A stretch of DNA of 37,782 bases from a virus. Location: positions 1-37,782 of IMG/VR virus record IMGVR_UViG_3300017950_000024, one strand, 5' to 3'. A program made the translations under genes and the position numbers. This document shows, piece after piece, positions 714 to 26,625 of this stretch (position 1 is the stretch's first letter; each line of letters opens with the position of its first letter). The notes under the pieces were generated by a model, which saw nothing but the letters and a program-made list of their open reading frames with translations, was not told the origin of the DNA and made no database searches.

Positions 714-1015
714 TGGCAACATATGGACCTATTAGTCCTTGGGGATCTACAAAAGTTATTAATAGACAATATTTAGATGTGTTAAGAATACGCCCAATAC
801 CTAAAAGTGATGACGATGTATTGTACGAAGTGCAACCACAATTTACACATCGTCCAGATTTGTTAGCATTTTCGGTATATGGTACATCTAAACTTTGGTG
901 GGTATTTGCGCAGAGAAATATGGATATATTAAAAGATCCTGTTTTTGATTTAGAAGCAGGTATAAGAATTTTCCTACCAAGAGAAGATCAATTACAAAAA
1001 TTCTTAGGATACTAA
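713..1015 (+). CDS. 53: Baseplate wedge protein gp53 (LysM-like)
   Basis: This is a 100-residue protein, shorter than T4 gp53, which is known as a wedge subunit that joins wedges around the hub. It opens with YGPISPWGSTKVINRQYLD. The C-terminal half has the LysM-like signature of gp53: a hydrophobic strand followed by KLWWVFAQRNMDILKDP, then an acidic-Gly turn and the strand RIFLPRED. The start ATG at 713 overlaps the upstream stop and has a strong GGAGG Shine-Dalgarno at about 699-703. In T4, gene 53 also lies directly upstream of gene 5; here one large gene separates them. The identification is good from the WW...N...DP pattern plus synteny. Confidence 0.75.
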   Translation: MATYGPISPWGSTKVINRQYLDVLRIRPIPKSDDDVLYEVQPQFTHRPDLLAFSVYGTSKLWWVFAQRNMDILKDPVFDLEAGIRIFLPREDQLQKFLGY

Positions 1016-3673: not shown

Positions 3674-3683
3674 GAAATTTTAA

Positions 3684-6182: not shown

Positions 6183-6626
6183 ATGAGCACACAAGAGAAA
6201 AAACTATATAAAGAAATTGAAATTAAATCAAATAAGCGTCCTTCTACACCAGTAGAAAGTCGTGCTTATAAGGGTATTTCAACTGTTAATAACAACAGTA
6301 ATAGTTTTAATCTCTATGATATTGCCCTAATCAAACAAGATATTATTAACCATTTTCATATTAGAGTAGGTGAAAAATTAGAAAATCCAGGGTTTGGAAC
6401 TATTATTTGGGACGTACTTTTTGAACCAATGACAGATTCCCTTAGAGATGCTATTGCTAATAACGTTACAGAAGTTGTTAACTATGATCCGAGGGTACAA
6501 GTTGAACAAGTAACAGTTGACACGTACGAAAGCGGCATTTTAATAGAATGCACACTTACATATTTGCCATATAATATCTCAGAAAGTATGAAACTAAAGT
6601 TTGACGAAGATAACGCAATAGCGTAA
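6183..6626 (+). CDS. 25: Baseplate wedge protein gp25 (GPW/gp25 family)
   Basis: This is a 147-residue protein. Residues ~40-140 match the gp25/GPW family: DIALIKQDIINHFHIRVGEK, then NPGFGTIIWDVLFEP, a helix LRDAIANNVTEVV, and YDPRV followed by a beta-hairpin ending in LTYLPYNISESMKL. T4 gp25 (132 residues) is part of the conserved wedge core and helps initiate the sheath. The first ~35 residues are Lys/Glu-rich and look disordered. In T4, gene 25 lies away from gene 5; here it sits between 5 and 6. The Shine-Dalgarno is the AGAGGG just after the gp5 stop. Confidence 0.85.
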   Translation: MSTQEKKLYKEIEIKSNKRPSTPVESRAYKGISTVNNNSNSFNLYDIALIKQDIINHFHIRVGEKLENPGFGTIIWDVLFEPMTDSLRDAIANNVTEVVNYDPRVQVEQVTVDTYESGILIECTLTYLPYNISESMKLKFDEDNAIA

Positions 6627-9600: not shown

Positions 9601-10186
9601 CGGAATAACAACTAAACCGTTAGCACCGAGTAGCGATGCACTATTTGTAAATTTTGGTAAAGAAATTAATTCAATTAAGTCAATCAGTGACGAAGTAATT
9701 TATCATCCGGTTAAGTACAAAGTGTTATTTGGACAGGACTCAACAGAAGATTTGAAAGCAACATTTAAAATAGTTAAAAATCCTAATCGTGTTGTAAACG
9801 ACAACGAAATTAAAGCCTCAGTTATTACTGCAATTAACGAATTTTTTGCAATTGAAAACTGGGAATTTGGAGATACATTCTACTTTACAGAACTTAGTAC
9901 ATATGTAATGAGTCAGTTAGCACCAGACTTGTCAGCATTTGTAATTGTTCCGTTACAAGAAAGTTTATCTTTTGGTAGTATGTTTGAAGTTAACTCAGAA
10001 GCAGACGAGATTTTTGTAAGCTCGGCAACAGTGGAAAATATAGAAGTAGTATCTTCGTTAACTGCATCTAAACTAAGAGCAACAGGTGCAATATATGCGG
10101 ACGAAGTAACACAAGCACAAACAGGTGTTATAAGTTCAACAGGCACTATTATCAGTCAAAGTACAAATGGAGGCACTAGTTATTAA
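6686..10186 (+). CDS. 6: Baseplate wedge protein gp6 (baseplate J-like)
   Basis: This 1166-residue protein is nearly twice the length of T4 gp6 (660 residues). The N-terminus carries the gp6 signature of marine T4-like phages: NADFQSYDFDNLRRTMIGYL, then YPEDFNDYIESSEYLALIDL, FLGQNISYRIDLNAREN and RRESVLRLARLLSYNPKRNQ. T4 gp6 dimers form the continuous ring that holds the wedges together and drives baseplate rearrangement. Residues ~280-800 are beta-rich. Near residue 1050 is a baseplate-J-like segment (IKASVITAINEFFAIENWEFG, then FYFTELSTYVMSQLAPDLSA). The last ~60 residues are Ser/Thr/Ala-rich. The ribosome-binding site is AAAGGAAAG. The stop overlaps the next ATG (taATG at 10184-10188). Confidence 0.85.
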   Translation: MSSTDRQNRLLLAEDWKRIYQTFRNADFQSYDFDNLRRTMIGYLRQNYPEDFNDYIESSEYLALIDLIAFLGQNISYRIDLNARENFLELAERRESVLRLARLLSYNPKRNQAANGLLKFESVSTTEELYDSNGTNLSGQTVLWNDISNQEWYEQFIKVLNSALPANSVYGRPVKTGIVNGVSAEQYRVNGTNTDIPIFGFSKNVDGKNTQFEIVSTGIEDNSIVEESPLPGNNFAFLYRDDGQGAGSSNTGFFTHFRQGRLDQGNFNVSNPSTNQVVALDAVNVNNSDVWLYKLDNIGNETELWSKVDAVEGNNIVYNSLNKNIRNVYSVLTRVEDRISLIFSDGTFGELPKGSFKVYYRVSENRSYVISPDEMINISISIPYQSKTGTSERLTIGLELKYTIDNGTTSETNAEIKANAPATYYTQNRMVTGEDYNIAPLAVSQEILKVKSVNRTSSGISRYYDLLDATGKYSKTNLYGKDGIIYTQYLTSKENFTFNTRTDIEGVIKNQIERILGDYKTKNFYYSKFSKILVRDLGARWNQVTKAQNISTGFISDADGSKLRTGTFTGSTLQYLEPGAMLKFEAPTGYHFMPDGTIMAGAANHPGAITYKWVKVVSVNGPGVDNTNDGLGPIILNDVIPNAINGDLNTAPLLTEIKPIFVTGIESQIQTQIIDQVFTYKSFGLRYDFNTSTWRVVLDTNLDTVSPFSTGKTGDLTNQNLDASWVLLFQTDGETYTITSRGQRYVFESDEEIRFYYDSSDKVYDPLTNQIVKDKISLMSINRTPLSTGYALTPFTVPFEWEIIAEYRDKEGYVDSKKVEIGFFDSDDDGVVDDPEIFTRFITPNEKEKFIFLKQYTTTDNVDDFRYVNATEELIQVVLNEQEVIDNGIASYSEGSVFYIIDKNIFKTYNTDTETLQLIVNYRAYEGRDNIIFQYVHAADESNRIDPSSSNIIDVYMLTRQYDTQFRQYIQGGITTKPLAPSSDALFVNFGKEINSIKSISDEVIYHPVKYKVLFGQDSTEDLKATFKIVKNPNRVVNDNEIKASVITAINEFFAIENWEFGDTFYFTELSTYVMSQLAPDLSAFVIVPLQESLSFGSMFEVNSEADEIFVSSATVENIEVVSSLTASKLRATGAIYADEVTQAQTGVISSTGTIISQSTNGGTSY

Positions 10187-13100
10187 TGGCTTACAATGAC
10201 GAACAAAACGAATATCCTCTACCAGCGGATGGAAAGACATCTAGAAAGAGTGAAAAGTTTTTACCTAAGTTCTTTAGAACTGATGCTAATAAGAAGTTTT
10301 TACAATCAACACTAGATCAATTAACACAGCCAGGGGTCGCAGAAAAACTAAACGGATATTACGGAAGAACAATCTCCAAAGCATTTAACGCAGACGATAA
10401 CTACGTAGGCGATGTATCTACACAACGTGAAAACTATCAGTTTGAACCTGTAACACTAATCAAAGACGATTTAGATAACGTTACTTTTTACAAAGATTAT
10501 AACGATTACTTAAATCAAATTAAGAGCTTTGGTGGACGAATTGATAATCAAGAAGTTCTTAATGGACAAGAATATTATTCTTGGAATGCTAACATTAACT
10601 GGGACACTTTTACAAACTTTCGTGAATATTACTGGTTACCGTATGGTCCGCAAACAATTCGTATTGCAGGTCAAAGTCGAGGCGTTCAAAGTACTATTGC
10701 TGTAAAGTTAATTAATAATGTTGATAACAACACTTATAGTTTTAGTACAGACGAATTAGTTAATAATCCAACGCTAGTGCTATACAAAGGACAAACATAT
10801 ACTTTTGATATTACCGCTCCGGGCAATCCGCTAACATTTAAAACAAAAAGAACACTTGATGAAAGTTTTAATTACAATTCCGGTATTAGCGCACAAAGTG
10901 TTGAAAAAGGCACTATCACAATTACTGTAAGAAATGATACGCCTGAAGTATTATATTATGTTGCAGAAAACGATATTAATAATAGTGGTTTAATACAAAT
11001 TAAAGATATTGAAGAAAATACTGAAATTGATGTTGAACGCGAAGTAATAGGTAAAACTAGCTATACTACTAAAGACGGATTAAGTTTATCAAATGGAATG
11101 AAAATCTCATTTGCAGGTCTTGTTACACCAGAAATTTACAGCGACGGTGATTTTTATGTAGAAGGTGTAGGAACATCAATTAGATTAGTTAGAGAAGCTG
11201 ATTTAGAAATTCCAGGAGCCTATTCAGAAAATAAAGATTTGCCGTTTGATACTAATGCATTCGATAGATTGCCTTTTGCTAATGCTAACGGTTATCCTGC
11301 TACTAAGGATTATATTGTAATCAATAGAGGTAGTCTAGATAAAAACATGTGGAGCCGATACAATCGTTGGTTCCATAAAGATGTTATACAAGCAAGTGCA
11401 GCAGCAAACGGACAAACTATAAATGTTGATCAAGCACAACGTGCAACTCGTCCTATTATTGAATTTAATGCAGATCTAAAGTTAATGAACTTTGGTACTG
11501 CGAATAAAACAAACGTAGATTTAATTGACACATTTACTAAAGATATTTTTAGTACAATTGAAGGCTCTATCGGTTATAACATAGATGGTATTAATCTTGT
11601 AGATGGTATGCGTGTTTTGTTTACTGCTGAAGAAGATATTCGAGAAGCGGGCAAAATATTTAAAATTAAGTTCATTACACACAAAGGACGTAGACAAATT
11701 AGTCTTATTGAAGAAGATGATTCTGCTCCGCAACTACACGAAACAGTTCTAGCACTAAACGGGGAAACTTATCAAGGACGTATGTTCTGGTATGATGGCG
11801 AAACGTGGAAACTAACACAAGAAAAGAATACAACTAACCAACAACCTTTGTTTGAACTATTTGATGCCGATGGCGTAAGCTATGCGGATTACGATAATAG
11901 CACCTTCCAAGGTAATATGATTTTTTCATATGCTACAGGAACAGGAACAGTTGATGAACAGTTAGGATTTCCTCTAAGTTACAGAAGTATTGAAAACATC
12001 GGTGATGTTGTTTTTAACTTTGATTTATTAAGACGTTCATTTACATATACAAACAATAATTTAGAAACTGTAACACTTGGAACAGATAACGGATTCTTGC
12101 ACAAACATATAAACAGAGAAGAATTTGTTAATGTAAATGGCTGGACACAAGCAAATATACAAAGCACACAGCGTGTTTTAAGACAGTATGTTACAGTGCG
12201 TAATCAAACAGATTATCCAATTGATGTATACAATAATAGTGCAGATTTAACAGATTTAAATATTCGAGTTACTGTTAATAATGATTTTAAATTTGAAGGG
12301 ACAGATTTTGAAGTTGTAACAGTAGGTACAACTGCTGTTGTAAGATTTAATAGTGCGTTAAAAATAGACGATATTGTAGTTTTAAAAACACGTTCGTCTG
12401 CAACTAAAAATGAAAACGGAGTATATGAACTACCGGGTAACTTAGAAAGAAATCCACTTAACAATGATATAAGTGCATTTACATTAGGCGAAGTTAACGA
12501 ACATGTTTCGACTATTGTACAAGAAGCAGATAACTTCTTTGGAGCGTTTCCAGGGGCAGGTAATTTAAGAGACCTTGCTAATCCTTCCCAGTACGGACGT
12601 AAGTTTTTGCAACATACTGGCCCAATTAACTTATCTTTATATCACATAACGGATAAAAGTGCAAACATTATTAAATCAATTGACTTTGCAAGACGCGAGT
12701 ATGCTAAATTTAAAAGATTGTTTTTACAGACTGCTACAGAACTAGGATTCGACGGAACACCTAAAGCACATGTAGATTTAATTTTCAAAGAACTGAATAA
12801 AAACAAAAACAGTTCACTACCGTTTTATTTTAGTGATATGGTGCCGACAGGTGGCGCAAGGTCAATTACTTATAATGGTATACCTAACAATAAGTTTTAT
12901 GCTCTAAACGAAATATTTGACATTACGTCACCAAACGTAAAAGCAGTTACCGTTTATGTTAACGACGAGCAGATAGTTTATGGTAGAGATTATACATTTA
13001 ACGCAGACGGGTTTTGTGAAATTGAACTATCATTGACAGAAGATGATGTAATACAAATCTTTGAATATGAAAATACAGATGGATCATATGTTCCTCCGAC

Positions 13101-16100
13101 ACCTACAAAATTGGGAATGTATCCTAAATTTATTCCGTATAAGTTTGTTGACAGTACATATAATACACCTACAGAAGTTATACAAGGACATGATGGTTCT
13201 ATAACTAGAGCATATGGTGATTACAGAGATGACTTATTGTTAGAATTTGAAAAAAGAATTTTTAATAATTTAAACGTCAATTATGATACTAATGTTATTG
13301 ACATCCATAGTTTCGTTCCTGGTGCCAATAGAAATACTACAGTTACTAAGCAAGAAATTGATAGTGTTATGCTAAAAGATTTTGCTTCTTGGTTAAGTGC
13401 AGTAGGCGATGTTGATTACACCGGGTTTAGCTTTTATGATAGAGAAAATAGATTTACATATAATTACGGAAGTATGAATTCTCCTACAGGCGAAAAATTA
13501 CCTGGCTACTGGAGAGCAATTTATAAGCAAGCATTTGATACTGATCGTCCTCATACACATCCATGGGAAATGTTAGGATTTAGCATTATGCCAGACTGGT
13601 GGGAAGAAAAATACGGACCAGCCCCGTATACAAGCAATAACTTATTAATGTGGGAAGATTTAGAAAAAGGTATCATCGCTCAACCCGGAGTTGTTAATGT
13701 TATACTTGACACGTATAAGCGTCCTGAGTTAACATCACACATTCCAGTTGACACTCAAGGTAACTTGTTAAGTCCGTTAGACAGCGGATATGCTAAAAAT
13801 TATGTTAATAGATTAACTCGTAGTACGTTTGTATTCGGCGACGAAGCGCCGGTTGAAACAGCTTGGCGCAGGAGTTCAGAGTATGCGTTCTCGTTATTTA
13901 AGGCTTGGGCATTAATACAACCTGCAAAAATTATAGGATTAGGCTTTGACAGACTACGTGTGCAACGCAATATTGCTGATCAAATCGTTTATTCTGAAAC
14001 TGGTAAACGTATTAAGTTAACAGATTTAGTATTTCCAAACAACTCTACAGTAGAAACAAGAACAAGAACATACACTTCCGGATTTATTAATTTTATTGCA
14101 AATTATCTCGCAAGCAATATACTTGTAAACTATCAAGATTATCAAGATAATATAAACCGTATTTCTAATCAGATGGCATTTAAAATCGGCGGATTTACTG
14201 ATAAAAGTAAATTTAATCTAATTTTAGATTCAAGAACTCCTCTAAGTCAAGGCAATGTTTTTGTACCTGATGAAAATTACGAAGTAATACTTCAAACAAG
14301 CAGTCCAGTTGAACTTGTAACATATAGTGGCGTAGTTATTGAAAAATCAGCTAGTGGCTACATTATTAGAGGTTATGACTCAACTACACCTTCATTTAAG
14401 TATTACAACTATGAATCTAATGAAAAAGATCCTACAGTTAATGTAGGCGGAATTAGTGATAATTATATTGAATGGGATGATAACAAGCGTTATATCGAAG
14501 GCGTTATAGTTAGATATGACGGACAGTTTTATAGAACAAAACTAGCACATACTAGTTCACAAGCATTTGATGCTACTAAATTTGCTAGATTACCTTTCTT
14601 ACCAGAAGTTGGCGGCAAAAGTGCTGTATTTAGAACACAATTTGATAGAGTATTCATACAGGAATTACCGTATGGAACATTATTAAGAACTACACAAGAA
14701 GTAGTTGATTTTCTAATAGGTTACGGAGAGTATCTAAAAGATCAAGGATTTGTATTTGATAATTTTAACAACGAATTGAGTTCAGTTGAAAATTGGAAAT
14801 TAAGTGCAAAAGAATTTATGTTTTGGACTTTACAAAATTGGGAAGCAGGTGCATTAATTACATTAAGTCCGTCTGCACAGAAAATTCAATTTAAAAGAGA
14901 AAATGCAGTAGTTGATAATGTTTTTGATACGTTTTACGATTACGGATTAGTAAAAGCAGATGGATCAAAATTAAAACAAGAATTTTGTAATATTTTTAGG
15001 CAAGACGATAATACTTTTGTATTAAGTTTAAAAAATACTGCTGACGGAATTTATGCCTTAAAACTTCCACTTGTACAAACAGAACATGTTGTTTTGCTAG
15101 ACAACCAAACAGAATTTAAAGACGTAATTTACGACCCAGAAGCAGGTTATAGACAAGAACGTATCCGTGTTTTAGGTTATAGAACAGCTGATTGGTCCGG
15201 CGGATTAAATATTCCAGGGTTTATATACGATCAAGCACAAGTATTTGAATGGACACCGTACAAAGATTATGCTATTGGTGACGTTGTTAAGTATAAAGAA
15301 TTTTACTATACAGCAACAACAAAAGTAAGCGGATCGCAAGATTTTGAATCAAGTAAATGGTACAGACTAGCCGAAAAGCCAACACCTGGATTAATTCCAA
15401 ATTTAGAGTATAAAACAAATCAGTTTGCTGATTTTTATGATTTAGACACTGACAATTTTGATGTAGGTCAGCAAGAGATTGCACAGCATTTAATTGGTTA
15501 CCAAAAACGTGATTACTTGGCAAACATTATCAATGATGATGTAAGTCAGTATAAATTTTACCAAGGTATGATTCAAGATAAAGGTACTAAAAATGCATTA
15601 ACTAAATTGTTTGATGCGCTAGGTGCTGCTGATAAGGAAAGTTTAGAATTTTATGAAGAGTGGGCAATTCGTGTCGGAAGATACGGAGCAGCTGACGGGT
15701 TTGACGAAGTTGAATATATTCTTAATGAGGAAGAAATGGTTGTTAGTCCACAACCTGTATTACTTTCTAATGAAATAACTGGCGACGAAACAGACTTAGT
15801 TTATAGAATACTACCAAACGATGTGTATGTTAAGTCTAGTCACTATGATCATAAACCTTTCCCTACAAAATATATAAGCGACACTCCTATTAAGACTGCC
15901 GGTTATGTTAGAGAATCAGATGTACAATTTACTGTAACAAATAAAGAAGATATTCTTAATTTAGATATTGCATTAGTTGCAGAAGGTGATTACATATGGG
16001 TTACATTTGAAGGTCAAGAATGGAATATTTACAAACATGCTGATACACTGTATACAGTAAAAAGTGTTGCTCCTGCAGAGGATAATCAAATAGAAGTTGT

Positions 16101-19100
16101 ATTTGATAAAATACACAACTTTGTTGTCGGAGACTACATTGGTATCAAAGATGTTGTTGATTTAGATGGATTTTATGAAGTATTAAGTGCAAATTTAAAC
16201 AGAGTTACGGTTGAGTTGAAAGAAGACGGAGTACTTGGCACTGAAGAAACAGAATTATCAGGAGTTGTTTCGACAATAAAAACAAATCGTGTTGCTAAAC
16301 TTGAAGATGCTAATAAGTATGCAGAAACAGATATAAATGAAGATGAACTTATTTGGATCGATAGTGTCGATAGTGATAATAAATGGGCTGTATTAAAAGC
16401 ATCAAATGCATATAACTTTGATGAAGATATTCATAATCCTAATAGTAGCAATACATTCGGAGATAGTTTAGCAACAAATACAGATAATACATTTATAGCA
16501 GTTGGAGACCCAACTGACGGCGAAGGCAAAGTCCATATATACAAAAGAGAACAAGACGGCAGCACCGTTTATGGAACATTACAGCCACATCAAACACTAG
16601 AACCAATTGCAAACTTTGACAATGGTGCAAGTAAGTTTGGTGACAGTGTAACAATGAGTCCAGATGGCAAATATATTGTAGTTGGTGCTCCAGAAGCAAC
16701 ATATGTAAAAAGTGCATTTAAAGACAATTTTGATTTTTCTACAGATTATAAACTAGGTACTATTGTAAAATATAATGGCGGACTATATAAATCTCGTAGA
16801 AGAGTTTTTGGTAGAACAGATAATGTTGAATTTGGATCGTTCGACAGTGTAAGTCGTTGGCGTTCTGAACTTTATAAACAGTACAATAATTATTTAGATT
16901 TTCCTGTAATTACTACAGGAGATTATCCGTTAACAGATATAACTACAGATCACATCCTCGTAAGAGCACCTGCTGATGCATACGAAGGAAGCAATGTAGG
17001 CGATCGTATCTACTTTGAGTGGAATGATATTACTAACGCATATATTGATAACAAAGGTATAGAAATTGTTGGCCTAAGCATGGGCAATCCTGTTACACTT
17101 ACTACAAACAGAGATCACGGATTAGTTGATGGTGATCAAGTAATACTAACGGATTTTCCAAACGATAACTTAACTTTTAGAAGCGACCTTTATGACAATA
17201 GTGATATAAACACTCCGTTTGATACTATTGAACAACAAGGCGTTAAAGGTTTTGAAGGATTTACATATTATGTTAAAAAGACTTTAGATCAACAAATTGA
17301 ACTTTATAGAGATGCAGAATTAGTAACACGAGTTAATGGCACAATTGGCTTTACTGGTGAACCTATTGGAGCAAGTGGCGCTAACCTTAATTTAGGCGAC
17401 GGCAGTGTACAAGGTGTCATTCGTAAAATTAATTTTCCGTTTAACAAGAAACAATCTGAAATAACAAAAGAATTCTTAACAGAAACGACTCATACAATTA
17501 GACGTAAAGTTGAAGAATTATTCTATATTATCGATCCAGTAAATGTTCCTAATATGCCAGTAACAATTACAACTACTGGTAATGTTCCTACATCCAATAT
17601 TGTAGTTGGTAATATTATAGGACAAGCTAATAATACAGTATTTGGTACAGTTAATAAAATTAACGGCAACGAAATAGAAGTAATTAATGTTTCGGGAATA
17701 TTTAAAACTCAAGGAAACTTAATCAATAGATCGGCATTAACTTCTACTGATTGGATTGATTTGGGTCCGAGCACAGTTCCTACAAATATAGATGCTTTAA
17801 TTCAAACAGGTGCTAGAGTTACTACAGAAACAGGAAATGCCACAGTTACCTATATTAGAAAAGATTTAGGTAGACTAATAATTTATGCTAATGATAAAAA
17901 CGGAGTCTTTGAAGAAACTGGACAACTGTATATCGACGATCAGTTCTTTGTTGGCGATTATGTACGTCCTTTACACGATGAAGTTGATAGAAGTGATGTA
18001 GTTGGCGGATATTGGGAAATTGCTACAGACAATTCTTATATTCCAGGAGACATAACATCTGACAATGCATACGGATTAGTAATTAGCGATATTAAAAATG
18101 GATATAATCCAAATACATTTAGCAATCCAAATCCGACGTGGAAAGAGAGCTCTGCAAGATTACCATATAAGTCAAGTGTTCAAAATGCCTTAGAAAATCC
18201 TGTAGAAGTTTTAAGCGGTGTAGATAAACAATTCCAAAAAGAAGTAGACTTAATTAGAGTATTAAGTCATAAAAGTCAAGGTATTGCTGGCGATGTAAAC
18301 GAAGTTGATATTTTTGATAATAGATGGGTAATAAGACTTCCTAAAAATGTATCAGATAAGTCATCTACTGATTCTACTCTAGCAGTTGGTATATACTTAA
18401 ATGATATTAGAAACGCTGACGGATCTATTATTGATTTATCTGACAGAGGATTTGGCAACGATCCTTACAGTATTATTAATAGAGTTGACTTACCAGTTGA
18501 TTTATGGGATGGATACATTGATTATGATTTAACTGTAGAACTTGATCTACAACCTGGCGACACTGTACGCGAAGGCGTTACTGGTGCTACTGCAACAGTT
18601 GTATATTATCAACGAGACTTAGATAAGTGTAGGATTTACGTTAAGGATGTTGCAGGAACGTTTACATTTGGTAGTCGTTATATAAGCGGCGTTGCTCCTG
18701 AATCAATGTTCCTTTACAAACAAGTTGGCGCAAATCTATCAAGAGTAGGTACCACTGAATCAAGACAACTTGCTGATAGTGATATTGGTAAATTAGCGGT
18801 GTTTACACATACTGAAAATTTAGAAATTCCACCTAAACTATCTTATGCAGTAACAAGTCAGACTGACGAAATTGCAGATTACGAAACTAAGTTTATTACA
18901 GGTATAGAATATCAAACTTGGATTGAAGAATACAAACCAGGATTACCAAGAAACCCACTTGCTCCTAGTAGAGAAAACAATGACTGGGCAGAAGTTAATA
19001 ATATTCCAATCAATGTTGGTAGAGATGCAAGTACATTTGTAAGAGAAGGTGCTTTCTTTGTATATGAACACAATACTGAAACAGGTAACTATGATTTAGT

Positions 19101-22100
19101 TAACGGTTACATTCTACCTAATAGAGAAGACAACAGAAAACTTGCATCGGAAGTTAAACTAATTAACAACGGTGATTTTTATAGACTAGTTCTCAACAGT
19201 AGTGAAAATCATATTAATGATACAGACGCAGCCGGCGGAGCAGGTAGAGTTTATTTTGTCGTTCATGGCAACAATCAGTTTGGAGAGTACGATTGGCAAC
19301 TAGGTAAAAATCAAAACTTTAAAGGTGTTTACAGTAATACAGACATCTACTACGAAGGACAAGTTGTTATTTATAATGACGTGTTTTATAAAGCATTAAC
19401 TAATCTAAGCAACGAAGAATTTGATAGATCTAAGTGGCAGTTATTAAGCGAACATATAGATTTTGTAGGCTATTTGCCAAATACATCAGGATATGTAATT
19501 CCTGGAGATGATTCTAGTATTGTTGATTTAAATACAAGCACATTTGGTAGAACATTTGATATTAGTAAACAAGGAACAGTTCTTGCTACTATTGCTGAGT
19601 ACAGTAGTGGAAATAAACTAGTAATTTATACATTAAAAGATAACCATTTTGAGTATAAGACAGAATTTACAGCTCCAGAAGATAGTAGAGGATTTGGTAC
19701 TCGAGTTGCAGTATCTAATAATGGTAACTTAATTGCAGTAAGTGCTCCAGAAACATATGCAGAAAACATACTACAAGGAAAAGTATATGTTTATAAAAAT
19801 ACCAATGGAACATTTAGATTGCATCAAACACTTGAAAGTCCAAATAAAGAACTTGCAGAAGGGTTTGGATTTAGAATAGACTTTGACGATAATCAATTAA
19901 TTGTTTCAGGAAGCACAAGCGATATAGTATTAGAAACTACTTTTGACAGATTCTTAAATAGAGATTCAAATTCGCAAGATAGATTTAACAGTACGTATGT
20001 TAACGATCCACAGCGCGAATTGTCAGTGGGCCAAACTACGTTTGATAACGGATTTACAAATTATGTAAGTTCTATAGAAGACAGCGGTATAATTTACCTG
20101 TATGAAAATGTTAATGATAGTTTAATATTTGGACAACGCTTAAAGTATAATAATTTTAATGTTAACGAATTTGGTAAAAACGCTATTGTACAAGATAATA
20201 CTATATTAATAGGATTACCTACGTTAGACGGCGGCAAGGTTGCAGTTTACATTAAAGAACCAAATGCAAAAGTTTGGACTGTGCATAGAGAACCTGTTAT
20301 ACCGGTTGATGTAAGCAAAATGCGTGGATCGTTTATATACGACACAAATAAAAACTTAATGCTATCACGCTTAGATATTATTGATCCTGTACTTGGAAAA
20401 ATTGCAGGTATTGCTGAACAAGAAATTTCTTATAAGACATACTTTGACCCAGCTAATTATAATATTGGCAATGCATCTACAAAAGAAGCTCTTACAGTAT
20501 GGGCTCAAGATAATGTTGGTAAATTATGGTGGGATTTAAGCACTGTAAAATTTGTTGATTATCACCAAGGCGATGTAACATATTCAAATAATATATGGGG
20601 CAATCTTGCACAAGGTGCAAGTGTTGATGTTTATGAATGGGTAGAATCAAGAGTTATTCCTAGCCAGTGGGACGCAAATTCAATTACCAATCGAGGCGTA
20701 GCTAACGGCTATAGCGGACAAACAAAATATAGCGACACAAAATATGTAGAAAAGGATATTTACGATAACATTAGTCAGAGCTTTAGCAAGCGTTACTACT
20801 TCTGGGTTAAGGATACACGTATTGTTCCGAATGTAGAAAACAGAAATAAAACAGCATTTGACATTGCAAACATTATTAGAGATCCGGAAGGACAGCAGTT
20901 ACGTTTTGTTACATTACTAGGCAATGATAGATTTGTATTATATAACACAAATAAATTAACTAGTGAAAACAATGTTGCTGTTAATTTCCGTTATTGGACT
21001 ATTGATAATCAAGATAATAACATTCACACAGAATATCAAATTATTACTGACGGGCTAGATACAAGTCGTCCTAAGAAAATAATAGAAGACAAATGGTTTG
21101 ACAGTTTAGTTGGCGCAGACAAATATCATAGAGATGTACCTGATGCTACATTGAGTGTTAAACAAAAATACGGAAATCAGCTTAAACCAAGACAGTCGTG
21201 GTTTGTTAATAGACAAGAAGCACTTAAACAGTTTATTGAAAGAGTAAACAGAGTGCTTGCAGATGAACTAGCAGTGGACAATTTAAATATTACTAAGCTA
21301 TTTGAAAACGATCCAATGCCGTCGGAGTTATCAGGTCTTTATGATACAGCAATTGACACAGAAGAAGAATTGCGTTTAGTTGGTACTGTTAGAGCAACAC
21401 AAGCAGTGTTGGAACCGGTTGTTGTAGATGGTACAGTTGAAAGTGTTACCATTGTTAATGGCGGTAGAGGTTACAGATTGCCTCCTAAGATTGAAATTGA
21501 AGGTACCGGCGAAGACTTAGAATTACGTGCTAATGTAAACATTATAGGCGCTATTACAAGCGTGGATGTTGTTAACGGCGGCACTAACTACCAAGACACA
21601 CTAACGCTTGCTGTAAGACCTCTTAGTGTGCTTGTACGTGCTGATAGTACGCTTATTGGAGCATGGGCAATATATGCATGGGATGTCACTACACGCACTT
21701 GGAATAAATCAAATCAACAATACTATAATGTTGCTGACTATTGGAATTATAAAGACTGGTATGCAGAAGGTTATAGTTCTCTAACTTCGGTAGACTTCTT
21801 AATAGACGACTATTATCAGTTAAACATTATCGACGATGCCATCGGTGATATTGTAAAAATTAGTGACGTTGGTGCAGGCGGCTGGATACTATTAGAAAAA
21901 ATAGTAAATGTTGACACACCTGATTACAGTACAGGTTATAAGACTGTAGGTAGAGAAAACGGAACTATTGAGTTTTTAGATAAATTATACACGCAAGTAG
22001 GTGGCGATACCGAATTGCGTAAAATATTAGAAACTATTAGAGATGACTTGTTTGTAGATGAATTAGCAAACGAGTACAATCAATTATTCTTTGCAAGTTT

Positions 22101-25100
22101 GCGTTACGTACTGTCAGAGCAAAACTACGCAGATTGGTTATTTAAAACAAGTTTTATTAAAGCAAAACACAATGTTGGCGAGCTAAGAGAAAAAACAACA
22201 TTCCAAAATGACAACTTGCCTAGCTTTGAAGAATATGTTAATGAAGTAAAACCTTATAAAACTAAAATTAGAGAATATCTATCGGCCTATGATAAACTTG
22301 ATAATACACAAAGTGTATTAACAGACTTTGAATTATCACCGTTTTATGATCCACAGCGTGGTGAAATAATTTCGCCAACAGTTACAATTAACGATGGTGT
22401 ATTATCAGATATTAATTTTGATGTAAATGTATATCCGCAGAAACACTGGATTGATAACTTTACATACGAAGTAGAAGAAATACTAATTAAAGACGGCGGC
22501 AGCGGCTATACCGAAGTACCTCTAGTAACTATAAGCGGTGGCGGCGGCACAGGTGCAACTGCTCGTGCATTTATTGGTAGTGGCGCTGTTAAGAGTATTG
22601 TAGTTGATAACGGTGGCAATGGTTATACTAGTGTTCCGACAGTTAACATTGAAGGCACACAAGCAGACGGCGGAACACAGCCTAGGTTAAGTGTTGTACT
22701 TGGTAATAAGAAAATTAGAACTTTAAATGTCAAACAAAAATTTGATAGAATAACACCTAATTATGAAATACTAGTTCTCAAGGAGACAGAGACATTTATT
22801 AGTACAGGAACTGAGCTTAGAATTGAATTAAAATATCCAATGGATTTAACACGAGCTAATGTAAGTGTTGTTATAGATGGTGTAGAAGCACTTGACAGTG
22901 AATACTCATACGGTAATCAAGATAGTCTAAATGGATATATTTTACTTGAACAATCTCGTATTGCTGGTACAACTATTACTGTAGAATATAACAAGAGCTA
23001 TGAAATGTTATCAGCTGCTGATAGAATTAATCTAGCATACAATCCAGAAACTGGACAATATGGTAAAGATTTAGGACAGTTGATGGACGGCGTAGATTAC
23101 GGCGGTGTAGAAGTTCGTGGATTTGAGTTTGGAAAAGACTTAGGATATGATTCTCAACCATGGTTTACAACAGAATGGGATTCTTATGATGATAATTTTG
23201 ATGACGAAACGTTTTATACAGACGGCAGTACAACTAAATTCCAGTTAAGCAAACCTCTTGCAGACGGAGAAACATACAACGTCTACGTAAATGGTATAAG
23301 AATTGACGATCCTAACTATGACGGTAGTACAAAAACTTATCTTGCAGACGATGGAATAACTATACTTGCACTAGGTAACCCAAATGCAATAATGAAATCT
23401 GTTACTACTGAAAGTCCTGAATACATTATTGAAACTAATAATAGTGTTACAGAATATTTTATAAAAATAGAAGATGTTGAATCGTGGGAAAGTTTATACG
23501 ACGATACTTGGTATAATCCACCAAGCGATGATGTTGTTGTAGTAATACGCAAGTCAACTTCAGACGGAAGTTTCTTACCAAGTGGAGCAGGATTTGATAC
23601 ACTTATCGAAGGTGGAAATTTACAGTACGGAACTGCTACAGGACTAGATGCAGGTGACATTACAATAGACGGCGACGGATTTGTAACACCAACATCGTCA
23701 AAAGGTCCTGAAGAATTAGTACCCGGACAATTACATGATACTCTAGATATGAAGATATTTGACAGAGTAGCAGACGGCGGTAGTGTAATGTCGACTAGAA
23801 ATTACACTGCTATAGAATCACAAACTGAGTTTGATTTAAATATTTTGCCACATAATATCTTCTCGTTATTTGTAAAAGTAAATGGCAGTATGCTTACTGA
23901 AAATGACTATGAGATTAATTATGCTGATAAAAAAGTTGTACTTAATACAGAATTAAATGTAGGCGATAAAGTTAATATTTCTTCAATGTCAGGCAATGGA
24001 GAAAGAATACTTGATATTGATAATTTTACAGGCGATGGCAATACAAGAACGTTTGTAACAAATAGTGTTTACAGAGAAGAGTTGCAATCCTATATTACTG
24101 TTAATGGATCGATAGCAAAAGTAGCATTATTTGAAACAGATGAAACATATGGAGATAAGCAAGGGTTAGTTGGATTAGAATTTTCAACAGCACCTGACGC
24201 TGATTCGTTTATTTACTATGCGCTATATGACACAAACGAATCTACAATACAACGATATAGTGCAACAGCAGTAAATAGATTTGTAGGCGACGGCAGCACT
24301 ATAGGATTTGAGCTCGCACCAGAGCCTAGTTCAAGATTGCCATTAAGTCATAATGTTGTTGTTAAAGTTGATGACACAATATTATATCCGGGTTATACAC
24401 AACAGTGGTATATTGTTCCTGACAGAGTGTATACCTTAGATAGATCGCAATATACTGGAAGTAGCTTAAATCCAGATGAAGTTGATGTTTATCTAAATGG
24501 AAGTAAGCTAAAATTCTTAATAGATTATAACTGGGATTTTGCTAATACTCAAGTTGTGTTGTTTGACAACGTAGGCGAAACTGGAGACGATTTAGAAGTA
24601 GTTGTACCGTCGACAGCAGAGTATGCATTTTCTAAGAATACTAGAATAGGATTATCTCAGGTAACTGGTACTTTTGAGGTTGGAGAAACTGTAACAATTG
24701 GCTATCCTGATAGTACACAGTTTACAGCAACAGTTAAATCTTATAGTACTAATTTATTAACGGTTATTGGCACCATTCCTGGATTACAATCATTAGTTAA
24801 TAGCGACGATACTATTCCAATTGAAGGATTAACAAGTAATGCATCAACAAACGTTGTGTTAGATGTTGACTTAATCGAAGCTGGTGATAACTTAGTTCTT
24901 AATGATGTTCCTGCAATAGGTGCAAATATTGATGTATTTACATTTACTAGACATGAATTGCAAGATATCCAAATGGAAACTAAAACTAATGTTTCTAGAA
25001 GTTTGCTAACTATTGGAAGTGACGACTATTATGATGCTCATAGACGAGGTAAAGGTTTAATTGAACTAAGAGAACCTGCCGTTGACGCTGCATATGTTTG

Positions 25101-25986
25101 GGTAGTTCTAAACGGTACATTGCTAACAGCTAACAGAGACTATAAACTAGTTAAACTTGATAGTTATGTACAAATAACTCGTCCGTTAACAACTGAAGAT
25201 GTGATACAAGTAATACACTTTGCTGCACCTAAATCTAACGTGAAATTTGGATTTAGAATGTTCAAAGATATGCTAAACAGAACTCACTACAAGCGTCTAA
25301 ACAAAAATAATGTTTATACTCTTGCACAAGACTTAAATATAACGGATAAACAAATTGTACTTGCAGATGCAACAAATATTACTATTCCTGATGTAGATGC
25401 AAATAACCCAGGTGTACTATTCATTGAAGGTGAGCGCATCGAATACTTCCAAGTAGACGGTAATACACTTTCACAATTACGTAGAGGTACACTAGGTACT
25501 GGTGCTCGAACAGTTTACAGTGAAGGAACCGAGCTTATGGACCAAAGTGATAAAGAAACTGTTCCTTACAAGGATCAAATGGTTTCTTTAATTGCACTTG
25601 AAGACGAATCTACAAAGATTGTACTTGATTGGCTTCCAACAAAAGGAGTAAATGAATTTGAACTCTTTGTAGGCGGTCGTAGACTACGTAAAAATGCAAT
25701 ATCTGCATACCAATTCCAGGAAGTTGATGCAGACGGAAACTTAGTTACTAGCCTAATTGATAAAGAAAGTCCAGAAGGCGACATTACTTTAGCTCCAGAA
25801 TTTACTCTTACTATAGATAATGACACTGCTATAGTAGAACTTGCAGAAATACCTGCAACAAATAGTAGAATATTAATAGTAAGAAAAGTAGGAAAAACAT
25901 GGCAAAAGCCAGGTGAGCAGTTAAGATACTCCGATGATCCAGTAGCACAATTCATCCGCGGAGCAACAACTGACTTACCCGAATAA
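10186..25986 (+). CDS. Giant modular virion structural protein (5266 residues), putative baseplate-periphery/fibre-attachment protein
   Basis: A single uninterrupted frame of 5266 codons has its ATG overlapping the gp6 stop and a GGAGG site at 10169-10173. The N-terminus (~1-170) contains FLPKFFRTDANKKFLQSTLDQL and a Trp/Tyr-rich patch (SWNANINWDTF, REYYWLPYG). Visible modules are: four CBM5/12-like units (Y..G..V.Y....Y...W) near residues 1430, 1688, 2182 and 3044; FG-GAP-like propeller blades near 2085-2175 and 3118-3360 (KFGDSVTMSPDGKYIVVGAP, GFGTRVAVSNNGNLIAVSAP); NGG-GY repeats near 3751, 3790, 4098 and 4135; at least seven VNG beta-sandwich units near 693, 919, 4225, 4362, 4558, 4765 and 4969; and an end module (IEYFQVDGNTLSQLRRGTLG near 5080). 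No signal peptide or membrane segment was noticed. It takes the place of T4 genes 7-11. Very large structural proteins occur in marine T4-like phages; the exact role here is inferred. It may bind surface glycans. Confidence 0.8.
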   Translation: MAYNDEQNEYPLPADGKTSRKSEKFLPKFFRTDANKKFLQSTLDQLTQPGVAEKLNGYYGRTISKAFNADDNYVGDVSTQRENYQFEPVTLIKDDLDNVTFYKDYNDYLNQIKSFGGRIDNQEVLNGQEYYSWNANINWDTFTNFREYYWLPYGPQTIRIAGQSRGVQSTIAVKLINNVDNNTYSFSTDELVNNPTLVLYKGQTYTFDITAPGNPLTFKTKRTLDESFNYNSGISAQSVEKGTITITVRNDTPEVLYYVAENDINNSGLIQIKDIEENTEIDVEREVIGKTSYTTKDGLSLSNGMKISFAGLVTPEIYSDGDFYVEGVGTSIRLVREADLEIPGAYSENKDLPFDTNAFDRLPFANANGYPATKDYIVINRGSLDKNMWSRYNRWFHKDVIQASAAANGQTINVDQAQRATRPIIEFNADLKLMNFGTANKTNVDLIDTFTKDIFSTIEGSIGYNIDGINLVDGMRVLFTAEEDIREAGKIFKIKFITHKGRRQISLIEEDDSAPQLHETVLALNGETYQGRMFWYDGETWKLTQEKNTTNQQPLFELFDADGVSYADYDNSTFQGNMIFSYATGTGTVDEQLGFPLSYRSIENIGDVVFNFDLLRRSFTYTNNNLETVTLGTDNGFLHKHINREEFVNVNGWTQANIQSTQRVLRQYVTVRNQTDYPIDVYNNSADLTDLNIRVTVNNDFKFEGTDFEVVTVGTTAVVRFNSALKIDDIVVLKTRSSATKNENGVYELPGNLERNPLNNDISAFTLGEVNEHVSTIVQEADNFFGAFPGAGNLRDLANPSQYGRKFLQHTGPINLSLYHITDKSANIIKSIDFARREYAKFKRLFLQTATELGFDGTPKAHVDLIFKELNKNKNSSLPFYFSDMVPTGGARSITYNGIPNNKFYALNEIFDITSPNVKAVTVYVNDEQIVYGRDYTFNADGFCEIELSLTEDDVIQIFEYENTDGSYVPPTPTKLGMYPKFIPYKFVDSTYNTPTEVIQGHDGSITRAYGDYRDDLLLEFEKRIFNNLNVNYDTNVIDIHSFVPGANRNTTVTKQEIDSVMLKDFASWLSAVGDVDYTGFSFYDRENRFTYNYGSMNSPTGEKLPGYWRAIYKQAFDTDRPHTHPWEMLGFSIMPDWWEEKYGPAPYTSNNLLMWEDLEKGIIAQPGVVNVILDTYKRPELTSHIPVDTQGNLLSPLDSGYAKNYVNRLTRSTFVFGDEAPVETAWRRSSEYAFSLFKAWALIQPAKIIGLGFDRLRVQRNIADQIVYSETGKRIKLTDLVFPNNSTVETRTRTYTSGFINFIANYLASNILVNYQDYQDNINRISNQMAFKIGGFTDKSKFNLILDSRTPLSQGNVFVPDENYEVILQTSSPVELVTYSGVVIEKSASGYIIRGYDSTTPSFKYYNYESNEKDPTVNVGGISDNYIEWDDNKRYIEGVIVRYDGQFYRTKLAHTSSQAFDATKFARLPFLPEVGGKSAVFRTQFDRVFIQELPYGTLLRTTQEVVDFLIGYGEYLKDQGFVFDNFNNELSSVENWKLSAKEFMFWTLQNWEAGALITLSPSAQKIQFKRENAVVDNVFDTFYDYGLVKADGSKLKQEFCNIFRQDDNTFVLSLKNTADGIYALKLPLVQTEHVVLLDNQTEFKDVIYDPEAGYRQERIRVLGYRTADWSGGLNIPGFIYDQAQVFEWTPYKDYAIGDVVKYKEFYYTATTKVSGSQDFESSKWYRLAEKPTPGLIPNLEYKTNQFADFYDLDTDNFDVGQQEIAQHLIGYQKRDYLANIINDDVSQYKFYQGMIQDKGTKNALTKLFDALGAADKESLEFYEEWAIRVGRYGAADGFDEVEYILNEEEMVVSPQPVLLSNEITGDETDLVYRILPNDVYVKSSHYDHKPFPTKYISDTPIKTAGYVRESDVQFTVTNKEDILNLDIALVAEGDYIWVTFEGQEWNIYKHADTLYTVKSVAPAEDNQIEVVFDKIHNFVVGDYIGIKDVVDLDGFYEVLSANLNRVTVELKEDGVLGTEETELSGVVSTIKTNRVAKLEDANKYAETDINEDELIWIDSVDSDNKWAVLKASNAYNFDEDIHNPNSSNTFGDSLATNTDNTFIAVGDPTDGEGKVHIYKREQDGSTVYGTLQPHQTLEPIANFDNGASKFGDSVTMSPDGKYIVVGAPEATYVKSAFKDNFDFSTDYKLGTIVKYNGGLYKSRRRVFGRTDNVEFGSFDSVSRWRSELYKQYNNYLDFPVITTGDYPLTDITTDHILVRAPADAYEGSNVGDRIYFEWNDITNAYIDNKGIEIVGLSMGNPVTLTTNRDHGLVDGDQVILTDFPNDNLTFRSDLYDNSDINTPFDTIEQQGVKGFEGFTYYVKKTLDQQIELYRDAELVTRVNGTIGFTGEPIGASGANLNLGDGSVQGVIRKINFPFNKKQSEITKEFLTETTHTIRRKVEELFYIIDPVNVPNMPVTITTTGNVPTSNIVVGNIIGQANNTVFGTVNKINGNEIEVINVSGIFKTQGNLINRSALTSTDWIDLGPSTVPTNIDALIQTGARVTTETGNATVTYIRKDLGRLIIYANDKNGVFEETGQLYIDDQFFVGDYVRPLHDEVDRSDVVGGYWEIATDNSYIPGDITSDNAYGLVISDIKNGYNPNTFSNPNPTWKESSARLPYKSSVQNALENPVEVLSGVDKQFQKEVDLIRVLSHKSQGIAGDVNEVDIFDNRWVIRLPKNVSDKSSTDSTLAVGIYLNDIRNADGSIIDLSDRGFGNDPYSIINRVDLPVDLWDGYIDYDLTVELDLQPGDTVREGVTGATATVVYYQRDLDKCRIYVKDVAGTFTFGSRYISGVAPESMFLYKQVGANLSRVGTTESRQLADSDIGKLAVFTHTENLEIPPKLSYAVTSQTDEIADYETKFITGIEYQTWIEEYKPGLPRNPLAPSRENNDWAEVNNIPINVGRDASTFVREGAFFVYEHNTETGNYDLVNGYILPNREDNRKLASEVKLINNGDFYRLVLNSSENHINDTDAAGGAGRVYFVVHGNNQFGEYDWQLGKNQNFKGVYSNTDIYYEGQVVIYNDVFYKALTNLSNEEFDRSKWQLLSEHIDFVGYLPNTSGYVIPGDDSSIVDLNTSTFGRTFDISKQGTVLATIAEYSSGNKLVIYTLKDNHFEYKTEFTAPEDSRGFGTRVAVSNNGNLIAVSAPETYAENILQGKVYVYKNTNGTFRLHQTLESPNKELAEGFGFRIDFDDNQLIVSGSTSDIVLETTFDRFLNRDSNSQDRFNSTYVNDPQRELSVGQTTFDNGFTNYVSSIEDSGIIYLYENVNDSLIFGQRLKYNNFNVNEFGKNAIVQDNTILIGLPTLDGGKVAVYIKEPNAKVWTVHREPVIPVDVSKMRGSFIYDTNKNLMLSRLDIIDPVLGKIAGIAEQEISYKTYFDPANYNIGNASTKEALTVWAQDNVGKLWWDLSTVKFVDYHQGDVTYSNNIWGNLAQGASVDVYEWVESRVIPSQWDANSITNRGVANGYSGQTKYSDTKYVEKDIYDNISQSFSKRYYFWVKDTRIVPNVENRNKTAFDIANIIRDPEGQQLRFVTLLGNDRFVLYNTNKLTSENNVAVNFRYWTIDNQDNNIHTEYQIITDGLDTSRPKKIIEDKWFDSLVGADKYHRDVPDATLSVKQKYGNQLKPRQSWFVNRQEALKQFIERVNRVLADELAVDNLNITKLFENDPMPSELSGLYDTAIDTEEELRLVGTVRATQAVLEPVVVDGTVESVTIVNGGRGYRLPPKIEIEGTGEDLELRANVNIIGAITSVDVVNGGTNYQDTLTLAVRPLSVLVRADSTLIGAWAIYAWDVTTRTWNKSNQQYYNVADYWNYKDWYAEGYSSLTSVDFLIDDYYQLNIIDDAIGDIVKISDVGAGGWILLEKIVNVDTPDYSTGYKTVGRENGTIEFLDKLYTQVGGDTELRKILETIRDDLFVDELANEYNQLFFASLRYVLSEQNYADWLFKTSFIKAKHNVGELREKTTFQNDNLPSFEEYVNEVKPYKTKIREYLSAYDKLDNTQSVLTDFELSPFYDPQRGEIISPTVTINDGVLSDINFDVNVYPQKHWIDNFTYEVEEILIKDGGSGYTEVPLVTISGGGGTGATARAFIGSGAVKSIVVDNGGNGYTSVPTVNIEGTQADGGTQPRLSVVLGNKKIRTLNVKQKFDRITPNYEILVLKETETFISTGTELRIELKYPMDLTRANVSVVIDGVEALDSEYSYGNQDSLNGYILLEQSRIAGTTITVEYNKSYEMLSAADRINLAYNPETGQYGKDLGQLMDGVDYGGVEVRGFEFGKDLGYDSQPWFTTEWDSYDDNFDDETFYTDGSTTKFQLSKPLADGETYNVYVNGIRIDDPNYDGSTKTYLADDGITILALGNPNAIMKSVTTESPEYIIETNNSVTEYFIKIEDVESWESLYDDTWYNPPSDDVVVVIRKSTSDGSFLPSGAGFDTLIEGGNLQYGTATGLDAGDITIDGDGFVTPTSSKGPEELVPGQLHDTLDMKIFDRVADGGSVMSTRNYTAIESQTEFDLNILPHNIFSLFVKVNGSMLTENDYEINYADKKVVLNTELNVGDKVNISSMSGNGERILDIDNFTGDGNTRTFVTNSVYREELQSYITVNGSIAKVALFETDETYGDKQGLVGLEFSTAPDADSFIYYALYDTNESTIQRYSATAVNRFVGDGSTIGFELAPEPSSRLPLSHNVVVKVDDTILYPGYTQQWYIVPDRVYTLDRSQYTGSSLNPDEVDVYLNGSKLKFLIDYNWDFANTQVVLFDNVGETGDDLEVVVPSTAEYAFSKNTRIGLSQVTGTFEVGETVTIGYPDSTQFTATVKSYSTNLLTVIGTIPGLQSLVNSDDTIPIEGLTSNASTNVVLDVDLIEAGDNLVLNDVPAIGANIDVFTFTRHELQDIQMETKTNVSRSLLTIGSDDYYDAHRRGKGLIELREPAVDAAYVWVVLNGTLLTANRDYKLVKLDSYVQITRPLTTEDVIQVIHFAAPKSNVKFGFRMFKDMLNRTHYKRLNKNNVYTLAQDLNITDKQIVLADATNITIPDVDANNPGVLFIEGERIEYFQVDGNTLSQLRRGTLGTGARTVYSEGTELMDQSDKETVPYKDQMVSLIALEDESTKIVLDWLPTKGVNEFELFVGGRRLRKNAISAYQFQEVDADGNLVTSLIDKESPEGDITLAPEFTLTIDNDTAIVELAEIPATNSRILIVRKVGKTWQKPGEQLRYSDDPVAQFIRGATTDLPE

Positions 25987-26007: not shown

Positions 26008-26625
26008 ATGACAGATACATTTAAAGATTTAAACGGAGTACTACTCCAAGGACATATTAAAATCAGTGATCCTGAGAGTGGTGAAGTTCTTATTGACAAA
26101 CGCAATGCTATTCATTATGAAAATATGAGTATAGCACTTGCTGAGTCTTTGGCAAACGCAGGACAAGGTCCAATATATAAAATGGCGTTTGGCAACGGCG
26201 GCACATCAGTTGACCCAACTGGTATTATTACTTACTTAACTCCAAACAGCACTGGCACAAACGCAAGTTTGTATAATGAAACGTTTGATAAAGTAGTAGA
26301 TGATCAAGCAAGCAATAATACAGATCCAGTAAGAAATAAAATAGAAACAAGACACGTAAGTGGTACAAACTACACAGATATACTTGTAAGTTGTTTGCTA
26401 GATTACGGCGAACCTAGCGGACAAGATGCATTTGATACTGCTACAAATACAGAAAATCTTTATGTATTTGACGAACTAGGACTAGTAAGTGCAGGTGCAA
26501 ACGGCACCAACGGTAGACTATTAACACATGTTATCTTCCATCCTGTACAAAAGTCGCTTAACAGACTTATACAAATTGACTATACTGTAAGAGTTCAAAG
26601 TTTAACCGGATTTAATGAGGGATAA
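26008..26625 (+). CDS. Putative virion structural protein of unknown function
   Basis: This is a 205-residue soluble protein with no cysteine-rich or catalytic motif I can see. It begins with FKDLNGVLLQGHIKISDPES and includes KMAFGNGGTSVDPTG, then an Asn/Thr-rich middle, and ends with a beta-rich section (LLTHVIFHPVQKSLNRLIQI). The layout suggests a small beta-sandwich tail protein. Start: ATG at 26008, preceded by AGGAAG. It leads the fibre cluster behind a late-promoter-like box and lies 2 bases from the first fibre gene. It may be a fibre connector or baseplate decoration protein; this is inferred from position only. Confidence 0.6.
   Translation: MTDTFKDLNGVLLQGHIKISDPESGEVLIDKRNAIHYENMSIALAESLANAGQGPIYKMAFGNGGTSVDPTGIITYLTPNSTGTNASLYNETFDKVVDDQASNNTDPVRNKIETRHVSGTNYTDILVSCLLDYGEPSGQDAFDTATNTENLYVFDELGLVSAGANGTNGRLLTHVIFHPVQKSLNRLIQIDYTVRVQSLTGFNEG

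Follow-up and report, generated by a model that had tools for sequence, protein, structure and literature searches.

T4 gp6 and gp7 form a 2:1 trimer, (gp6)2-gp7. The gp7 fold comprises a core bundle and a trifurcation, and a KGT motif is present in gpI of phage P2. The wedge of phage A-1(L) is a heterotrimer of the same 2:1 kind (PMC10966104). T4 gp7 is described as a monomer present in six copies, whose A domain moves outward on baseplate opening, and as part of an ordered assembly with gp11, gp10, gp8, gp6, gp53 and gp25 (PMC3004832).

A second group of described proteins is catalogued as PHROG 10938, giant "virion structural proteins" of 3,333-5,624 aa from Rak2-like, PA5oct-like and Atu_ph07-like jumbo phages. 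Its members include PBECO4 gp538 (3333 aa), CBB_236, AUZ94962.1 of Atu_ph07 (4449 aa), Cassandra_0442 (3857 aa) and, assigned by mass and position only, phAPEC6 gp245; the orthologue in Salicola phage SCTP-2 has 3807 aa. The gene comes after gp6 in Atu_ph07, Cassandra, PBECO4 and CBB. Of the five isolates looked at, SCTP-2 alone departs from this: ~92 kb separate its gp6 from the giant, and what precedes the giant there is another giant ORF, 9.3 kb long (L003:8630-17920). At least one orthologue is located in the virion: CBB_236, identified as the orthologue adjoining CBB_237 (gp6), yielded 21 unique peptides in virion mass spectrometry, covering 7.72% of the protein (PMC5259590 Table 4). For phAPEC6 gp245, a 381.88-kDa protein encoded after the gp244 baseplate wedge protein, 17 unique peptides and 7.6% coverage are given (PMC7247149). 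These peptides mark the giant-family protein as a virion component, and coverage below 8% is too low to establish that the chain is incorporated in full. The first-pass annotation of the DNA studied here had pointed to virion proteomics of related phages for peptides along the entire protein; such peptides exist, at the low coverage just given. In AP-J-162, a 4455-aa structural protein follows a wedge protein and passes without comment in the portion of the report available (PMC11242549), and we found no discussion of the giant as gp7 in the literature searched, of which few subscription papers were within reach. The family is known but little described, and the locus reported here adds a large new member.

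The DNA analysed, hereafter the window, is a 37,782-base fragment of a virus record. Its gene order is T4-like, 25-6-(7)-(8)-fibres, with one enormous ORF in the slot after gp6 (Table 1). In addition to its own PHROG, the window gp6 matches PHROG 219, the T4 gp6 family (E 1.2e-21). The C-terminal end of the gp5-type hub protein resembles a class I chitinase (GH19) domain (Pfam E 1.1e-5).

Table 1. Features of the window, with positions counted from its first base.
Feature	Position	Strand	Basis or remark
gp53-like protein	713-1015		PHROG 7145 E 1.1e-23
884-aa virion protein	1019-3673		
gp5-type hub-lysozyme	3684-6167		
gp25 baseplate wedge protein	6183-6626	+	Pfam GPW_gp25 E 1.7e-7
gp6 baseplate wedge protein, 1166 aa	6686-10186	+	PHROG 10646 E 5.1e-294
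Giant gp7-slot virion/baseplate protein	10186-25986	+	5266 aa, ATG start, no internal stop
Conserved region with KGT motif (proposed gp7-like core), residues 980-2010	13123-16215	+	61-sequence alignment A1
CBM5/12-like module 1, residues 1424-1475	14455-14610	+	Pfam CBM_5_12 E 1.1e-13, best stretch
CBM5/12-like module 2, residues 1683-1734	15232-15387	+	local model
CBM5/12-like module 3, residues 2176-2227	16711-16866	+	local model
Variable insertion zone, ~710 residues (2220-2932)	16843-18981	+	BLAST blocks, low alignment occupancy
CBM5/12-like module 4, residues 3043-3092	19312-19461	+	pattern and local model only, no Pfam report
Second conserved region with GGxGY modules, residues 3330-4110	20173-22515	+	alignment A2
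205-aa protein, fold groups with gp8 and peripheral baseplate proteins	26008-26625	+	A3 model, pLDDT 85.6
Fibre 1, 722 aa	26628-28796	+	Pfam Collar E 4.1e-10
Fibre 2, 750 aa	28796-31048	+	~320-aa N-terminal region in common
Fibre 3, 876 aa	31107-33737	+	~320-aa N-terminal region in common

A single gene of 5266 codons directly after gp6 had been proposed in the first-pass annotation, and this held: the frame runs without a stop, its ATG overlaps the gp6 stop codon by 1 base (TAATG), and the other five frames across the same interval contain 235-774 stops each. We compared the giant with L005, the closest relative fetched, for which 4,604 aa of protein were available. Differences at codon positions 1, 2 and 3 numbered 534, 310 and 1538, and the third position was highest in every one of 19 bins of at most 250 residues. 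This third-position excess indicates that, across the part compared, purifying selection acts on one coding frame, and to that extent bears out the earlier suggestion that the frame has long been maintained by selection. The ORF is a genuine long gene and no chance frame.

Four successive overlapping pieces of the giant matched PHROG 10938 (E 4.1e-150, 1.8e-110, 5e-63 and 8.2e-23), the strongest match falling in the first quarter of the protein; judged by these matches, the giant belongs to that already catalogued family. A tblastn search with the N-terminal quarter found a relative in 63 of 50,697 phage records, and one N-terminal query identified 490 IMG/VR stretches that encode a relative, the best 80 of which were analysed. 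All 79 relatives that could be tested among these 80 had gp6 immediately before the giant, in the same orientation (L061 had too little upstream sequence to be counted), and 68 of the 79 shared the 1-base stop/start overlap. When 32 records were searched over their full length, three Rak2-like ones had an open frame of 3339-3356 aa and 28 others one of 4476-5624 aa. The window giant is therefore not the longest of its kind, as relatives in its own clade reach 5624 aa. With the PHROG 10938 isolates it shares the slot after gp6 and homology over N-terminal and central blocks, at ~26-33% identity in most of them; the virion location applies to CBB and phAPEC6. It differs from the isolates in length (5266 aa against 3333-4449 aa) and in an extra variable block at residues 2220-2932, a zone also skipped in BLAST alignments to the shorter relatives L028, L036 and L060. 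Conservation was strongest, with gaps, over residues 1-1900 and ~3400-4100.

Pfam CBM_5_12 scored 51.4 bits against a curated cut-off of 26.2 and reported three stretches within residues 1201-2534, only the best of which was placed. The remaining modules were located with a local model. As the four window copies were the input to this model, its hits to them arise by construction; it served to search the other giants for the module. The fold of module 1 matched a CBM at Z ~7, and the predicted CBM fold also matched a chain of Agrobacterium phage Milano (a baseplate with receptor-binding complex) and tail fibres of phage 7-7-1. Copies at the positions of modules 1 and 2 recurred in all seven clade members tested. 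The window giant has four such modules, whereas the four isolates tested have one (Atu_ph07, Cassandra) or none (SCTP-2, PBECO4).

Alignment A1 drew on 94 loci, of which 85 passed the coverage rule and 62 were left after thinning, two more having run off their locus; for A2, 51 loci passed and 41 were left. Profile searches of the two returned chitin-binding and tailspike modules only, the latter including tailspike Dpo31 (A2, E 5.4e-4), and a PDB sequence search with two large pieces of the giant returned a chance antibody match only. A short GGxGY module occurs at least twice in the giant and recurs in cyanophage structural proteins (loci L196-L200), and it is the profile region of this module that matches Dpo31. 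The module looks like a mobile phage surface element, one that may mislead annotation of gp7 and gp8.

We asked how the giant compares with T4 gp7 (PHROG 964). Both are encoded directly after gp6 with an overlap, of 4 bases between T4 genes 6 and 7 and 1 base in the window, and the giant has a motif that resembles the KG[TI] motif of gp7; they differ in length (1032 against 5266 aa), and the giant has no gp7 family-model match. The gp7 models (PHROG 964 and the Pfam Gp7 domains) matched no window piece at E up to 1, and PHROG 964 was found in none of 12 related jumbo records while matching both T4-type controls (T4 and V09). Alignment of whole T4-type gp7 to 12 giants by hhalign gave noise (probability ~0.1% or less), with the T4 KGI region placed at giant residues 3677-3727 and not at the KGT motif. 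A T4-type gp7 HMM against 12 giants produced chance hits only, none at that motif.

The motif itself, KFYQGMIQDKGTKNALTKLFDAL near residue 1799, resembles the gp7 core. We built a gp7-core profile from 51 T4-type and cyanophage sequences, left after thinning of 127 with the pattern; S-H38 was not in the set, since its motif deviates from that pattern. Run unguided, this profile placed the KGT motif as its top hit in two giant alignments, a weak match (E ~0.03, probability <2%). In shuffle tests, 2 of 60 shuffles of A1 scored as high, and 0 of 40 did so for whole giants, the best shuffle reaching 29.0 against 29.2.

Structure prediction covered residues 980-2010 of the 5266 and the 205-aa protein. 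The AF2 model of residues 980-2010, from 61 sequences, had a mean pLDDT of 74.5, with values of 29-46 around the KGT motif (model residues 761-860), as might be expected if the helices fold only together with gp6. A fold search with this model matched mainly CBMs and a small terminal beta module, along with weak matches to baseplate chains of KP1 and phi812 (9f4a_LS, 9euj_G). The absence of gp7 from the fold matches listed tests little, because the core is poorly predicted. P2 gpI (PF09684) was tried as a source of the KGT motif; it matched 0 of 9 records, T4 included, and is insensitive here. Segmenting the protein for profile searches and structure prediction had been suggested as a way of recognising T4 gp7, gp8, gp10 and gp11 in it. 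The profile searches found none of these families in the giant, and the structural half, on residues 980-2010, listed no gp7 across a core of low confidence. Homology of the giant to T4 gp7 is unproven, and we claim for it the gp7 slot without filing it in the gp7 family.

Cyanophages offer a parallel. In all five Kyanoviridae genomes examined, chosen via matches to the GGxGY modules of the window giant, the gene directly after gp25-gp6 is a giant: 7022 aa in S-MbCM6, 6405 in S-RIM50, 6376 in Syn33, 5512 in S-H38 and 4337 in S-B43. Three of these giants are annotated as baseplate wedge initiator or gp7, one as gp8 and one as virion structural protein. Each of the five genomes also has a separate downstream gene of 510-519 aa, annotated as gp8 in three and as "baseplate wedge" in two. 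The coexistence of a giant with a separate wedge gene means that gigantism in the post-gp6 slot does not imply fusion with the neighbours.

The five cyanophage giants carry the motif FY..KG[TI]..[SA]...LF, the T4 gp7 version of which is FYSTKGIEASYKFLF. Matches to PHROG 26741 occur in the T4 gp7 core and in the giants of S-MbCM6 and S-B43; PHROG 17744 matches T4 gp7 and S-MbCM6, S-B43 not being among the matches listed. A T4-type gp7 HMM had no hit in 22 cyanophage proteins, so the link to T4 gp7 rests on the intermediate families and the motif. With the window giant, the Kyanoviridae giants (PHROG 701/2885) have in common the slot after gp25-gp6, the GGxGY modules and a KGT motif, but the sequence matches are confined to modules and do not extend to full-length homology. 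The gp7-type motif is clear at residue ~200-700 in the Kyanoviridae giants and weaker, at ~1800, in the window giant. In S-CREM2, a "Baseplate wedge protein, intermediate" (77594-83407, 1.9 kilocodons) is listed with 91 unique peptides and comes after two "inner" wedge genes (PMC10665884 Table 3), which we infer to be gp25 and gp6.

Taking these comparisons together, we favour, with moderate confidence, the explanation that the giant is a wedge-scaffold protein of a jumbo myophage baseplate, occupying the gp7 slot and probably serving the gp7 role. Most likely it does the job of T4 gp7 alone and not that of five T4 genes.

The strongest competing account, though an unlikely one, makes the giant an extra peripheral protein, a skirt or whisker, with the gp7 role residing in an enlarged gp6 or in an unrecognised small protein. 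The window gp6 has 1166 aa against 660 aa in T4. The lack of demonstrable gp7 homology in the giant, the separation of giant and gp6 in SCTP-2, and the presence, in three of the five cyanophages, of a further gene downstream of the giant that is annotated as gp7 or wedge initiator are all consistent with such a division of labour. The overlap of the giant's start codon with the gp6 stop in 68 of 79 relatives argues against it, as does the restriction of the gp7-type motif to the five cyanophage giants, with no match in the other 17 cyanophage proteins tested.

The genes downstream of the giant bear on how much of the T4 periphery it could have absorbed. The 205-aa protein that follows it is 97.6% identical to its nearest relative, ~78-83% to three others and 36-51% to the proteins of four jumbo isolates. 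It corresponds to phrog_11259, of unknown function in PHROGs, and was matched in 60 phage records, mostly as hypothetical among those listed. A model from alignment A3 (52 loci hand-picked from 169) gave eight fold matches at Z 6.9-9.8, all to tail, arm or baseplate entries or to a phiKZ baseplate protein, the next match falling to 4.9. These were the tail of the archaeal virus HFTV1 (9.8), KP1 (7.5), A511 gp105, the phi812 arm, phiKZ gp139, T4 gp8 (7.2), and baseplate chains of phiKZ and phi812. Over 149 aligned residues the rmsd to T4 gp8 was 5.9, and over 145 residues of the KP1 chain taken as gp8 it was 5.3, with scores of Z 7-8 common according to the tool. The T4 gp8 score is tied with those of other peripheral baseplate proteins and lies below that of HFTV1. 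Foldseek returned no PDB match at E <=0.001, phiKZ gp139 coming first at 0.0012, and did not include T4 gp8 among the 50 matches listed; in BFVD it returned 33 matches at E <=0.001, mostly uncharacterised. No sequence link to gp8 was found with Pfam on 53 members or with hhalign, which showed no preference for gp8 among gp8, gp9, gp10, gp11, gp12 and gp53. The protein resembles T4 gp8 in its position after the gp7 slot and, at a moderate score, in its predicted fold, and differs in length (205 against 334 aa). From the modelled fold, it is likely, though unproven, that it acts as a separate gp8-like adaptor.

The three fibre proteins are 27-29% identical over their first ~320 residues and divergent downstream. 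This pattern of a common N-terminal region and divergent tips suggests that they probably share one docking region and carry several receptor-binding tips. The first-pass annotation had the giant followed by fibre genes ending in a collar-type protein; fibre genes are indeed present, but the next gene encodes the 205-aa protein and the Collar fibre is the first of the three. A gene with a Major tropism determinant N-terminal (Mtd_N) match (33802-35511, minus strand, E 6.4e-10) adjoins the fibre genes. Farther on, for the gene at 37039-37782 (minus strand), the PHROG label of HNH endonuclease looks doubtful against a Pfam assignment as VWA-like/metallopeptidase-like (DUF2201).

Earlier, the giant had been read as one gene replacing T4 genes 7-11, a single chain combining the roles of gp7, gp8, gp9, gp10 and gp11. 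We consider this improbable. It accords with the giant being roughly double the combined length of T4 gp7-gp11, with its sugar-binding-type modules, and with the results of family models for gp7, gp8 and gp11, which matched none of 12 jumbo genomes or fragments and both T4-type controls. Absence by HMM is, however, weak evidence of absence at such divergence. The gp9/gp10 N-terminal family did match in G002, at three short places, two of them over the cut-off; the best (E 3.8e-8) belonged to an ORF of 2094 aa, over 70 kb away from the giant. A sub-threshold match occurred in SCTP-2. No gp7-gp11-like gene had been recognised elsewhere in the window, which by sequence is correct save for a Gp10_C match in fibre 1 below the cut-off (E 0.022), but the 205-aa fold groups with gp8; and in a fragment such as the window, a missing gene means little.

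T4 gp8 is among the matches of PHROG 438, whose best match in the giant falls at the mobile GGxGY module, a point in favour of the combined chain. Direct BLAST of T4 gp8 against residues 3330-4110 was nevertheless at chance, and PHROG and Pfam searches of the pieces found no gp8-gp11 domain inside the giant. Of the wedge, fibre-attachment and host-binding roles once suggested for the one chain, host binding has putative counterparts in the CBM5/12-like modules. The replacement itself is not supported: the 205-aa protein and the three fibre genes are separate and stand in T4-like order, and all five cyanophages have a 510-519-aa wedge gene of its own alongside a giant whose size is comparable to that of the window giant or greater.

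That several genes were read as one through an assembly or annotation error has next to no probability: the gene lies in two frames in the relative G016, yet the frame is single and open in 31 of 32 related records, which we count as refuting an error, the third-position bias extends through all bins compared, and the same gene is present in isolates. In G016 (contig L026) the two frames are of 3381 and 1845 aa; in G004 the frame is intact, at 5230 aa.

If the giant is the wedge-scaffold protein of the gp7 slot, the following arrangement can be envisaged by analogy with the described wedges. One giant chain would belong to each wedge, six per virion, each joined to a pair of gp6 chains close to conserved residues ~1500-1900. 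Arms of beta modules, of ~1,500 aa on the N-terminal side and ~3,300 aa on the C-terminal side, would reach outward as the baseplate periphery, where the CBM5/12-like modules, as putative sugar binders, could hold weakly to the cell surface. Onto this rim the 205-aa protein and the three fibre proteins would attach, with specific receptor binding left to them. A broader scenario, which we consider unlikely, holds that the gp7-slot wedge protein became gigantic separately in jumbo phages and in cyanophages. In jumbo phages, six chains of ~590 kDa, grown by accumulating sugar-binding and beta modules, would make up most of the baseplate periphery and a surface-binding skirt, taking over from the pins gp9, gp10 and gp11, while the gp8-like adaptor and the fibres stay separate genes.

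The giant family is abundant, as the IMG/VR search indicates, and nearly all records listed name its members as hypothetical, structural or virion structural protein. The position behind gp6 has room for a protein thousands of residues long, with gp8-type genes remaining separate. If the giant is gp7, the T4 wedge plan reaches as far as jumbo phages, with gp7 as its growing component. The modular arms, with their putative sugar binding, would be a candidate first-contact device distinct from the tail fibres.
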